DNA of 64,000 nt from Gemmatales bacterium (lineage in GTDB: Bacteria > Planctomycetota > Planctomycetia > Gemmatales > Gemmataceae): contig BPJP01000003.1 of assembly GCA_026004675.1 (NCBI GenBank), forward strand, positions 124,001-188,000, read 5' to 3'. Of the stretch, positions 13,352 to 43,903 are shown in pieces (the stretch's first letter is position 1; every line of letters begins with the position of its first letter). The position numbers and the translations under genes were made by a program. Under the pieces are notes generated by a model. That model searched no databases and was not told the origin of the DNA. It saw nothing but the letters and a program-made list of their open reading frames with translations.

Positions 13352-14381
13352 TTACCTTTGCTCGTCTTCGGCGGCAAAGGGATAGCTGCCGAATAACAAC
13401 TTGCCCAGCCCCAGATACGGATCTTCGAGGTCGGTGGCCAACACCTCTTTATACAGCCAACGCTGCAACTCCTGCGGCTTGACCAGTCCCATATCCGCGA
13501 GTTTCCGGTGGATTTGCTTTCGGCGAATGGTTTCATTCGCTTTCGTATCCTTGACGAGAAACTCCCAGCTGGACAGGTCGCCAGGCAATCGAACCTCGCC
13601 GCTTGCCACGGCTTTTGCCGCTTCCGTCATTTCTTCTGTTGTCGCTCCCACCAGAAGCTCCGTAGGCCTTTCGATTGCGATCCTTTTTGTGACATCGGTG
13701 AATGATCTGGCTGCGGTTCTCACTGGAACGCCTCCCCGAGTTTCGGCAAGTTCGAGCACCCGCTGGTGAAACCCTCGGAGAATCACTACGCGGCCCTTGT
13801 TATCGATTCCTTCATTGCTCAGAAACCGAGCCAGACGCAGCAGTTCCTCCAGCCGTTTCAGGTAGACATTCGGCGTGTAAATGCCCGGCAGTACATCGCA
13901 GACATTGCCGTTGCAGTCGCAGACATAAGTCGCAATGTTCCCGTGCAGTGTGCGGGTGACGATGGTGCCGTTACCGAAATCGATACGGACGATCGGTACT
14001 TCGCGAACGCTTTGCCAAACAGGCTCGAAGTTGTATTGGATAAAACGGGCAACGTGGTCATGTGAGAACAACACGGTTCTCGCCAGGCGGGCGTTGGTTC
14101 AGCAGAATCTTTCGTCGAGTTTCCCCATCAATTGGAAAACCAGGATGGGTTTGCGCGATTTTCCGGCAGCTTCGATGGCCTTTTCCAACGAAGCATGCCA
14201 GCGAACTTTGCCCGGGTCGACACGGGGATTCTCGAACCTCTCGACACGAGTTGCTGGCCTCGCAGACGCCGATTCGGCAGAGGGTCGCCGAGGACGTCCC
14301 GATCTTCTTGGCACCAGCGACGGCAACAGCGGGCAACGACATGATCGCAGCCGCCAGCCATAACAAAGGAACACGTTTCAT
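13352..14381 (-). CDS. Secreted thioredoxin-like protein, candidate selenoprotein (in-frame UGA; one frameshift)
   Basis: Read with one base removed and UGA as Sec, this is a 342-residue protein. It starts at ATG 14381 (AAGGAG seven bases upstream) with the signal peptide MKRVPLLWLAAAIMSLP...AVA. A thioredoxin-like region follows: RWHASLEKAIEAAGKSRKP, then ILVFQLMGKLDERFC, UGA (14099-14101, residue 94), then TNARLARTVLFSHDHVARF. The frame stays open and protein-like for 248 codons past the UGA (VPIVRIDFGNGTIVTRTLHG, PGIYTPNVYLKRL, ending at a TAG-class stop at 13352). Cys93-Sec94 falls where thioredoxins keep the redox cysteine. A hairpin follows at SECIS distance. The signal peptide is one frame off, and dropping a base of GGG (14298-14300) restores it. 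Alternatives: pseudogene, or a sequence error at UGA. The redox function is inferred. Confidence 0.68.
14064..14081 (-). promoter_or_regulatory. Candidate bacterial SECIS hairpin (thioredoxin-like gene)
   Basis: Counting from the base after UGA, GAGAAC (18-23) pairs perfectly with GUUCUC (30-35) around the loop CGUGUU (24-29). Six-pair stem, G at loop position 2, and loop distance inside the range known for bacterial SECIS elements (roughly 16-37 bases). It lies within the coding sequence, as bacterial SECIS elements do. Confidence 0.6.
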
Positions 14382-14621: not shown

Positions 14622-15880
14622 TCAGTCCTGTTGGCGGAGTCGCCACCATTTTTCGATGATGTTTTGCAGGTGGCGAACTTTTTCCGGGTGTTGGCTGGCA
14701 AGGTTCTTTTCTTCGAAAGGATCTTCTGCCAGGTTGTAGAGTTCCGGTTTGCCCTTTTCGGGCCAGATGAGCTTCCAGTCATCTTCACGAACCCAGCGGT
14801 GGGTAAGGTTGAGCGCCGGCTGGTCGAGGCTAAGAGCGGTATGAACGAAGATCTCGCCGAAAACGGCATTGCGCTTGAGCTTGCCTTTGCCGGCGGCCAC
14901 ATCGAGGAGGCTCAATCCAGGGAGGTTGTCAGGGACGTCGACGCCGCACGCCGTCAGAATGGTGGGAACGATGTCGATCGTTGAGACGAGGTCATTGTAG
15001 CGCCCTGGTTTGGTGTGTTCGGGCCAGCGCAGCATGACGGGGGGTACGTAATCCGCCGTCATACGGGGAGAGTTTGCTTTTTGGCGCAAAACTCCCCCCG
15101 CGTGGTTCTCTGGCCAGTCTCCTGAATCCAGCCGTTGTCGACGACGAAGATGACGATCGTGTTGTCACGAAGTTTTTTCTTGTCGAGGTAGTCGAGAAGC
15201 TGCCCGCACGTTTCATCGAACCATTCGCACATCGCATAGTATTTGGCGAGTTTGATATTGCGTCCTTCGACGGCGTATTTTTGCAGGATTCGCATGGGGG
15301 GATTGTGCGGTGTGTGGGGCATCATTGGCGCGTACCAGATAAAAAATGGCTGGTCGGCGTTGGCATCGATGAAGTCGTAGATCGGTTTCATGGTCTTACG
15401 ACCAATATCGAGACCGGGTCCACCGTGCCTGCCAGAGACGGTCATGCCGTGAGTGAAGCCAGCATTGGCAAAATGACCTTCCCAGAATTTGCCCGTCTGC
15501 AGGCTGCGATAGCCAGCCTTGGCCAGAAGGCGAGGCAAAGCGGGAGCGTTCTTGATAAAGGGATGCATTTTCTCGCGGTCGACGCCCTTGGGAGGGTCGT
15601 TGCAGCAGATTTTGTGCTGATGGCCGTATAACCCGGTCAGCAAGGTAGCCAATGATGCACGACACAAGGAAGTCGGCACGTAGCCGTTTGGAAAGACGGC
15701 ACTTTCAGAGGCCAGCTTGTCAAGGTGCGGCGTCTTGATCACCTTGTGTCCCATGAAACCGAAATCGGTCCAGCCTTGGTCGTCGGAGATAATCATGACG
15801 ACGTTGGGTTTGTCGGCGAGAAGAATCGGCGTTGCCAGGCAAATCAAGACAATGGCGAGCAGCGAGCGATTGCGTAACAT
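14622..15880 (-). CDS. Secreted arylsulfatase-type enzyme (two apparent frameshifts)
   Basis: An alkaline phosphatase-fold sulfatase. It starts at ATG 15880 with a signal peptide (LLAIVLICLATPILLA). It then has the metal site NVVMIISDDQGWTDFG and the formylglycine segment PTSLCRASLATLLTG, and later VVDNGW. The reading frame breaks twice. The family motif SFAPKSKLSPYDGGLRTP is in a different frame from both flanks. Removing one base from C6 at 15094-15099 and one from G6 at 15039-15044 (plus-strand letters) rejoins everything into ~418 residues ending in EKWWRLRQQD. The active-site box reads C-R-A-S-L, without the usual Arg at position 5. It probably hydrolyses sulfate esters of polysaccharides outside the cytoplasm. 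A maturase is not in this window. Confidence 0.8.
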
Positions 15881-15915
15881 TGTTTCTTCCTTTTCCTGCA
15901 AAAGTCAATCGGGTC

Positions 15916-31883: not shown

Positions 31884-32256
31884 GAACCCGCAAGCCGGCT
31901 GGGCGATCGCTGCCTGACCAGTTCAGGGAGAGGAAAGTCCGGGCTCCGCAGGACACGGTGGTGGGTAACACCCACCGTCCGCGAGGACAGGGAAAGTGCC
32001 ACAGAAAACAGACCGCCTCGGCAATTTCCGGGGTAAGGGTGAAAAGGTGCGGTAAGAGCGCACCGCGGTCCGGGTGACCGGGCTGGCAGGGTAAACCCCA
32101 CCGGGAGCAAGGCCAAATAAGGGAGCAGGACTGTGTCCGGTCCGTGATGACTTCCGGGTAGGCCGCTTCATCCGTCGGGCAACCGGCGGAGTAGAGAAAT
32201 GATCGCCGCCGCTTGATGCGGTACAGAACCCGGCTTACAGGCCGACTTGCGGGTTC
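31884..32256 (+). ncRNA. rnpB: RNase P RNA
   Basis: A type A bacterial RNase P RNA that trims the 5' leader of tRNA precursors. The ends pair as helix P1 (GAACCCGCAAG with CTTGCGGGTTC). Universally conserved parts are visible: GAGGAAAGTCCGGGCTCC near the 5' end (P4 5' strand and CR-I), ACAGAAAACAGACCGCC, GTAAGGGTGAAAAGGTGCGG, and at the 3' end TACAGAACCCGGCTTACAGG (CR-V). A T-rich run follows P1, so this helix may double as the terminator. A TATAAT box lies just upstream. Confidence 0.96.
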
Positions 32257-42238: not shown

Positions 42239-43903
42239 ATGGCGGAACGAGACTGGATTTGCTGCACGACGAATCGAACCCGTTGGCTGGTCCGGCCCGA
42301 TCTACGTGACCTTCTCCTGGGTGCCGACGGCCTCTTGCTCGACGATTGGCTGCGGACCGGCCGAGCGGACCGCGTCAAACATGGTCCGCACCGGACAGTT
42401 TATCGGGTTCGGCTGCCTCAGATCGAGTTTTTCGTCAAACAAAATCGGCTGGTGGACGTTCGCAGCCGACTTCGCCAACTCGTTCGGCCTGCCAAATCAC
42501 GCATCGAATTCGAAAAAGCTTTGGAAATCTCCCGCCGGGGCATTCCGACTATCTGCCCGATCGCACTAGGCGAACCCGTTACGTGCCTCGACCGGGCCGA
42601 CAGTTTTCTTTTGACAGAGAACCTCGCTGGCGCTCTGCCATTAAGCGACTTGATCGAGAAAATCCTTCCTGGGTATTCGTATCGAAGGCAGGTGCGAATA
42701 CGCCATCAACTAAGCCATGATTTGGCGCGCTTCCTTTGCCGAATGCACGATGCCGGCGTCGCCCACTTCGATTTGCACGCCGGCAACCTGCTGGTTCGAC
42801 TTTCGGCCGACGATGTTCCGGAATTGTTTTTGATCGATTTGCATGCCGTCCAAGTTGGTTCGCCGTTGACGTGGCGACAACGCCGGGAAAATCTCGTTCT
42901 TCTCAATCGGTGGTTTGCATTGCGGGTGTCGCGATCGGATCGTCTGCGTTTTTGGCGAGCATATGACAGGCAGGACACCGGTCGAAACGAGCGTGCTCTG
43001 CTGGTAGAGAAAGCCACGCTTGCGTCCAATCTTGATTTCTGGAGGCAACGCGATCGTCGCTGTTGTGCTACCAATCGCTACTACCGGCGTGTTCGGGCGG
43101 CCGGCATTTGCGGTTTTGCCGTTCGTGATTTGGACACGGCAGTTGTGAAAGAAATCGTTCGCGACCCCGACGCTCTTTTCGATCGCCCCGATTGCCGGTT
43201 TCTGAAAGATTCGCCCACATCAACGGTGGCGGAAGTGACGCTCCGATGCGGCGACGGTTGGAAGCGGTTCATTTACAAACGTTTTCGTGTGAAAAAGTGG
43301 CTGGATGTTTACAAACGCTCGCTGGGACATTCGCCTGCTTTGCGTTCGTGGATTTTCGGCCACGGTTTGCGGGAACGCCGACTGCCCACTCCTCGACCAT
43401 GGCTCGTTCTGGAGCGAAGGTGCTTCGCTTTTCGAGGCACCGGCTATCTGTTGACCGAAAAACTGGAACAGACCCTGGACCTGCGAACCTTCTTGGACGC
43501 TGCCTCCACGACCGTGAGGCGCGAGTTGGTTGAACGAATCGCGCGTCTCGTTTGGGAACTGCACCGACGACGGCTATCGCAACGCGACCTGAAAGCGGCA
43601 AACATCCTTGTCAAGGCGCAAGTGAATGGAGAGGCATCCGATATCTGGTTCATCGATCTGGTTGGGTTTCGACGCCATCGCAAACTAAGGCGACGTTGCC
43701 GAATTCAGAATCTGGCCCGGCTAAACGCCAGTTTTCACAACTCGGCCAAGTTGAACAGAACAGATAGACTGCGCTTTTTGCGCACCTATTTGCAATGGGG
43801 CTTGCGTGGCAAAACGGGCTGGAAACGCTGGTGGCGGCAAATCGAACAAGCCACCCAGAAAAAAATCGACCGCAATCTCCGAAATCGGCGTCCGCTCGCC
43901 TGA
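42239..43903 (+). CDS. Tandem WaaP/Kdo kinase-like protein
   Basis: A 554-residue protein with two kinase-like domains of the lipopolysaccharide core kinase (WaaP/InaA/KdkA) type. The first, ~25-260, has VKHGPHRTVYRVRL, FFVKQNRLVD (lysine), HDAGVAHFDLHAGNLLV (catalytic loop) and LFLIDLHAV (metal-binding Asp). The second, ~320-540, has FIYKRFRVKKWLDVYKRSLG, LHRRRLSQRDLKAANILV and IWFIDLVGF. Both appear to keep catalytic Asp and Asn. It is likely to phosphorylate a sugar of lipid A core or another surface glycan. Two complete domains in one chain is unusual. It follows a glycosyltransferase by 63 bases. The start ATG 42239 lacks a good ribosome site. Confidence 0.8.
   Translation: MAERDWICCTTNRTRWLVRPDLRDLLLGADGLLLDDWLRTGRADRVKHGPHRTVYRVRLPQIEFFVKQNRLVDVRSRLRQLVRPAKSRIEFEKALEISRRGIPTICPIALGEPVTCLDRADSFLLTENLAGALPLSDLIEKILPGYSYRRQVRIRHQLSHDLARFLCRMHDAGVAHFDLHAGNLLVRLSADDVPELFLIDLHAVQVGSPLTWRQRRENLVLLNRWFALRVSRSDRLRFWRAYDRQDTGRNERALLVEKATLASNLDFWRQRDRRCCATNRYYRRVRAAGICGFAVRDLDTAVVKEIVRDPDALFDRPDCRFLKDSPTSTVAEVTLRCGDGWKRFIYKRFRVKKWLDVYKRSLGHSPALRSWIFGHGLRERRLPTPRPWLVLERRCFAFRGTGYLLTEKLEQTLDLRTFLDAASTTVRRELVERIARLVWELHRRRLSQRDLKAANILVKAQVNGEASDIWFIDLVGFRRHRKLRRRCRIQNLARLNASFHNSAKLNRTDRLRFLRTYLQWGLRGKTGWKRWWRQIEQATQKKIDRNLRNRRPLA

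Follow-up and report, generated by a model that had tools for sequence, protein, structure and literature searches.

Locus and reading frame

The window analysed here is a stretch of 64,000 nucleotides from a Gemmatales bacterium. Its minus strand carries a gene that, as assembled, extends from an ATG at 14381 to a TAA stop codon at 13354-13352 (13352..14381) and contains at 14101-14099 a UGA that is very probably read as selenocysteine (Sec). KPILVFQLMGKLDERFC stands upstream of this UGA and 248 codons follow it in frame up to the TAA, in agreement with the initial annotation, in which both sides of the codon had been placed in one frame. The product begins with a stretch that by eye resembles a signal peptide (MKRVPLLWLAAAIMSLPAVAVAGA, 14310..14381), and the N-termini of relatives are likewise hydrophobic by eye. 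From ATG to UGA there are 280 bases (3x93+1), so the N-terminal frameshift noted earlier is a real one-base break in the assembly, lying between about 14374 and 14270; because the stretch joining signal to domain varies among relatives, they do not allow it to be placed exactly. The adjoining sulfatase gene (14622-15901, minus strand) is also split across frames, at about 15060-15240, suggesting either that the sequence here contains indel errors or that the sulfatase gene is decaying. The split would favour an assembly error in the selenoprotein gene as well, and the break near its N-terminus is probably of that kind. Elsewhere in the window, a class A RNase P RNA lies on the plus strand at 31891-32253 (306.6 bits).

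Homologues and the codon at the predicted selenocysteine site

A search of 59 genomes with the window protein (P0001, UGA written as C) found the family in 17 of them, including the one to which the window belongs. In the four closest other genomes (G013, G042, G032, and G040) the same codon is TGA, the copies in G032 and G040 having apparent frame breaks or further stops, and in G055 and G051 the aligned codon is TGT. A survey of the class (397 genomes) found 45 that matched at E up to 1e-10, comprising 17 with a strong match and UGA, 19 without a stop (Cys), and nine with a weaker match and UGA. The codon was read at 106 of 107 loci (L137, with no alignment across the site, was left out) as TGC in 61, TGT in 26, and TGA in 19; of these, 69 were contributed by a scan of genome contigs in which C was back-translated as TGY and which was therefore limited to Cys forms; its loci serve as Cys homologues and for trees, not as a measure of UGA frequency. 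The class is probably Planctomycetia, since the row of one genome belonging to it, G316, is identical to the row of Adhaeretor mobilis. Duplicates (L126, L136, L139, and L140) were removed from the Cys rows. The corresponding survey of the phylum (294 genomes) gave 32 matching genomes, of which 23 have UGA and nine have no stop, and the 29 loci read there divided into 20 UGA (15 of this clade and five of weaker clades) and nine Cys. All close homologues whose codon was read thus have UGA or Cys, the outcome that a selenoprotein had been expected to give; the two exceptions are distant relatives with neither (L008, GAC; L011, GCC).

No conserved gene partner was found beside the UGA genes in 20 UGA-gene regions and the window; apart from the gene's own pieces and shadow ORFs (judged by position), no neighbour cluster recurs in more than two of these 20. 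Next to genes of the Cys form, a response regulator was seen at 10 loci, a trypsin-TPR protein at 13, and a histidine kinase at eight, two of the latter being UGA regions; the loci include L076, L088, L107, L109, L112, and L099, and one or two members of each recurrent neighbour were identified with Pfam.

The hairpin downstream of the UGA

A SECIS-like hairpin of six base pairs (GAGAAC-CGUGUU-GUUCUC; 14064..14081, minus strand) begins at the 18th base past the UGA, pairing bases 20-25 with 32-37 (counted after the U of the UGA) around the loop CGUGUU at 14070-14075, exactly as it had been described. By itself such a hairpin is unsurprising, since a six-pair stem (G-U allowed) lies near 291 of the 1687 TGA triplets on the two strands of the window; seven of the 1687 have one at exactly this spacing, and only one of the seven, this gene, also has a CGTG loop. 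Folding energy was unremarkable over 85 nt (z 0.56), and in a second test (z -1.59) 18 of 200 shuffles were equally good; not being exceptional, it was dropped as proof. The case for a predicted SECIS is comparative, consisting in a conserved UGA and a stem that covaries among relatives.

All six pairs are kept in each of the 16 class-survey UGA genes examined and in none of 83 Cys homologues, which keep four at most; mean hairpin energy is -8.7 kcal/mol in the former and -1.4 in the latter. When these 16 genes were joined with 15 from the phylum survey (alignment A6; 31 rows, 29 distinct; L200, with its stem in another register, and L201-L204, of other clades, left out), the stem was kept in 31 of 31 and 174 of 174 pair cells were paired, while registers slid along the alignment reached at most 67.8%. 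Both-sided changes occur at four of the six pairs, and the covariation score of 0.365 (0.147 when shuffled) was reached by none of 500 shuffles, a comparison that ignores kinship; changes at two pairs come from the same four related rows, so that independent events are few. CGUG opens the loop in all 31 rows. An AGA or AGG codon lies within the stem in 16 of 16 UGA genes versus three of 83 Cys genes, and downstream these codons make up 20 of 230 arginine codons (11 UGA genes), an enrichment which suggests that the RNA itself is under selection. The hairpin is thus conserved and covarying as a bacterial SECIS would be, with SelB as its predicted ligand.

A model of this hairpin (R1) recovered from the genome this gene (66.3 bits) and part of the C7 paralogue; the other four UGA paralogues were not found by it, so R1 is clade-specific. 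Three further places in the genome (C16:3901-3952, C28:6128-6179, and C31:2469-2520) have equal weak scores of 16.9 bits and are perhaps copies of one repeat. A second weak match in the window (43531-43571, plus strand; 13.2 bits, E 0.00064) falls within an uninterrupted ORF and is probably due to chance.

The same observations bear on whether the UGA is a nonsense mutation or sequencing artefact, with a decaying frame beyond it. The gene does contain a frame break, and the sulfatase beside it is split over frames; against this, the same codon is UGA in many genomes and in several families, the frame is conserved on both sides of it, and the stem is kept in the UGA genes, which leaves a pseudogene or error very unlikely.

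Selenocysteine machinery

Had selA, selB, selC, or selD been lacking from the genome, the proposal would have been in difficulty; all four were found above cut-off, as a tRNA-Sec with anticodon UCA (72.6 bits) and as SelA (588 bits), SelB (384 bits), and SelD (370 bits). The SelD gene (G000:C6:132474-133400) has an in-frame TGA of its own, within CAGUAGK, which fits the UxxK motif given in Table 1 of PMC13188914, and its downstream hairpins are without a CGUG loop. A 95-nt tRNA (L027:1501-1595; G000:C12:96452-96545) with a GCA (Cys) anticodon, a long variable arm, and a U before its end reaches 54.8 bits against the tRNA-Sec model, whose cut-off is 47; it resembles the selC* tRNA-Cys type, described from other phyla (PMC7609411).

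This tRNA, shaped like tRNA-Sec and with a Cys anticodon, is what might recommend a different decoding, in which a reassigned code or a suppressor tRNA would place Cys or Trp at the UGA. Its anticodon is GCA and not UCA, a UCA tRNA-Sec is present together with SelA, SelB, and SelD, and TGA terminates 21 of the 32 ORFs of at least 250 amino acids (mechanically chosen) and is therefore otherwise an ordinary stop rather than a sense codon. Insertion of another amino acid is accordingly improbable, to about the same degree as a pseudogene.

Among the other genomes of the first search, SelA and SelB are both present in G013, G032, and G040; in G042 (TGA) SelA was found and SelB was not above cut-off, and in G055 and G051 (TGT) neither was above cut-off. 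More distant UGA relatives have SelB without SelA (G017) or SelA without SelB above cut-off (G030), and SelA was not found in G155, which has a weaker UGA relative. In the class survey SelA was detected in 16 of 17 strong UGA genomes (it was not found in G335, 65% complete) and eight of nine weaker ones, against a background of 233/397; in the phylum survey the count was 20 of 23 (not found in G552, G560, and G658, which are 84, 77, and 87% complete) against 192/294. For genomes at least 90% complete and at most 5% contaminated it was 14 of 14 against 98/155. Fisher tests, which ignore kinship, gave p values of 0.002 (16/17), 0.023 (20/23), and 0.002 (14/14). SelA likewise occurs in 13 of 19 Cys-form genomes of the class survey and seven of nine of the phylum survey; the Cys form is therefore not tied to a lack of SelA.

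Fold and active site

An AlphaFold2 model built on a 40-row alignment (mean pLDDT 78.5, pTM 0.77) has a thioredoxin fold at model residues 9-139 (13820..14212, minus strand), as the earlier description of the protein as thioredoxin-like had anticipated, followed by a C-terminal helical part (helices 146-281; 13394..13801, minus strand) with low-confidence stretches at residues 173-198 and 211-218. The best Foldseek match was 3f9u (E 3.5e-4, TM-score by target 0.64), two chains of which were the only PDB matches at E up to 0.001; further matches were DsbH (2ju5), a DsbH-domain protein, AGR2/AGR3, and thioredoxins. A sequence search of solved structures gave no matches.

Sec is model residue 46 (14099..14101), directly before the first helix (47-56). 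The UGA thus lies inside the modelled fold, between its first strand and first helix, and the Cys homologues continue through this position as a single protein. Both facts oppose an arrangement of two genes, in which a short exported peptide would end at the UGA, a second protein would start at GTG 14074, and the hairpin would control translation; although that GTG does open a 240-amino-acid ORF, we regard the arrangement as the least credible of those considered here.

In alignment A3 (40 rows, UGA written as C) this position is Cys in every row, and no other Cys is invariant. Neither a CxxC nor a UxxC active site was found in the protein, the motif being (C/T)UxN. The residue preceding the site is Cys in 26 of 31 UGA forms and Thr in the other five, and Ser in 92 of 92 Cys forms; the proposed Cys-Sec pair holds for this gene (FCU), but the adjacent Cys is not obligatory. 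A second Cys, in a strand (YVC), is present in 19 of 31 UGA forms as scored, and by eye in three of four rows left unmatched, and in none of 92 Cys forms, of which three were unmatched and have no Cys at that place. The preceding Cys and the strand Cys are candidate partners of a selenium-sulfur bond.

Relation to known families

No NCBIfam or Pfam family was matched above its cut-off by the window protein, and no NCBIfam match at E up to 0.01 was obtained for any of the 40 members of alignment A3 or the 14 of alignment A2. Pfam PF13899 (Thioredoxin_7) gave 14.9 bits (cut-off 27) with the window protein and matched eight of the 40 relatives at E up to 0.01. The VPGUxxT selenoproteins (NF041382 and NF041383) are likewise thioredoxin-like, with a weak match over query residues 31-95, but the window protein scores 13.6 bits with the first (cut-off 275) and 11.4 with the second (cut-off 350) and differs in motif, having FCUTNAR. 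The Trx7/PDZ selenoprotein (NF041199), also of Thioredoxin_7 type, has a CxxU motif according to Table 1 of PMC13188914; the window protein does not match it, and two paralogues score 11.9 (L171) and 15.0 bits (L175) against a cut-off of 300. Thioredoxin_7/DsbH/AGR2-type proteins are similar in fold by Foldseek, whereas the window protein is without CxxC and has the additional helical C-terminal part.

Table 1 of PMC13188914 (2026) names 119 selenoprotein families, none of which, as given in that table, could be matched to the present one, and the term 'planctomyc' is absent from the paper's main text. Selenoproteins of two planctomycetes have been reported (PMC4807772), and a similar family was not found in the accessible text of PMC12013277, PMC9312934, PMC5029168, or PMC1794560. 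The suggestion that the family is undescribed holds for these libraries and papers; the supplementary list of PMC4807772 may include a member. The proteins constitute a new and unusually broad family of predicted thioredoxin-fold selenoproteins with a Cys-form sister, set apart from others within the libraries and papers searched.

Paralogues and the direction of exchange

A profile of the wider family locates seven places in the genome, six of them with one TGA, this gene included. The five other UGA-bearing thioredoxin-like paralogues (L171, L169, L172, L173, and L175) have, by eye, stems around CGUGN loops, although the minimum-energy folds of L171, L172, and L175 depart from the stems so drawn. 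For the hairpin of the TUNNAEALR paralogues a stem is plausible, with 85.7% of cells paired (best slide 61.4%); its covariation is not decisive, since 18 of 500 shuffles reached the score and slides +1 and +2 surpassed it.

A tree of 123 core sequences, with the site masked, separates Sec and Cys forms by one change (support 96/92), on few columns and with the bootstrap not settled. A rooted tree, with 14 UGA paralogues as outgroup and 31 of the 92 Cys rows (two of every three dropped), nests the Cys clade within Sec forms (SH-aLRT 92, or 99 for the group that joins the Cys forms to four Sec rows), from a quick search with long outgroup branches and with Cys rows from the TGY-only scan. Besides the duplicates already removed, the trees exclude L141, L142, and L167, and L176, a false motif match, was removed from the rooted tree. 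The nesting indicates that Sec is probably the ancestral state of the family.

A proposed selenoprotein of the cell envelope

The computed basis for the selenoprotein is a UGA that is conserved, or replaced by Cys, in homologues, together with a hairpin that covaries, a complete machinery, and the model fold. Counting against the Sec reading are the frame break in the assembled gene, the apparently broken copies in G032 and G040, the distant relatives L008 and L011, the ordinary hairpin energy, the UGA genomes without SelA or without SelB above cut-off, the SelD hairpin without a CGUG loop, and the few independent stem changes. Taken together, we hold with high confidence that the product is a thioredoxin-fold protein, predicted to be exported, whose UGA would be decoded as Sec by means of SelB and the hairpin. 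SelB, on the hairpin 18 bases downstream, would deliver Sec-tRNA(Sec) to the UGA, after which translation would run on for 248 codons. In thioredoxins the nucleophile stands at the N-terminus of the fold's first helix, and the selenol would occupy that same place, beside a Cys (FCU) and without CxxC. As to export, bond partner, and reaction, we infer that the protein acts through its selenol as a reductase or peroxidase in the cell envelope and would form and release a selenenylsulfide with the adjacent or the strand Cys.

More broadly, and with only a modest preference, we favour a Planctomycetota-wide superfamily of thioredoxin-fold selenoproteins that would be exported and number several in each genome. 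Sec would be its ancestral state, and a single replacement of Sec by Cys would have produced the Cys form, which today occurs in Acidobacteriota, Myxococcota, Verrucomicrobiota, and others as well. Gene callers that take UGA only as a stop split such genes in two, and a redox system in a phylum common in the environment is then easily overlooked. For the study of SelB recognition the family provides Sec and Cys forms as a clean pair, together with a short covarying SECIS (UGA, 17 nt, 6 bp, CGUG loop), and its tree allows the direction of exchange between Sec and Cys to be read. If the broader proposal is true, the customary view that Sec arises from Cys would here be reversed, and Planctomycetota would be using selenium outside the cytoplasm on a large and so far unrecognised scale.
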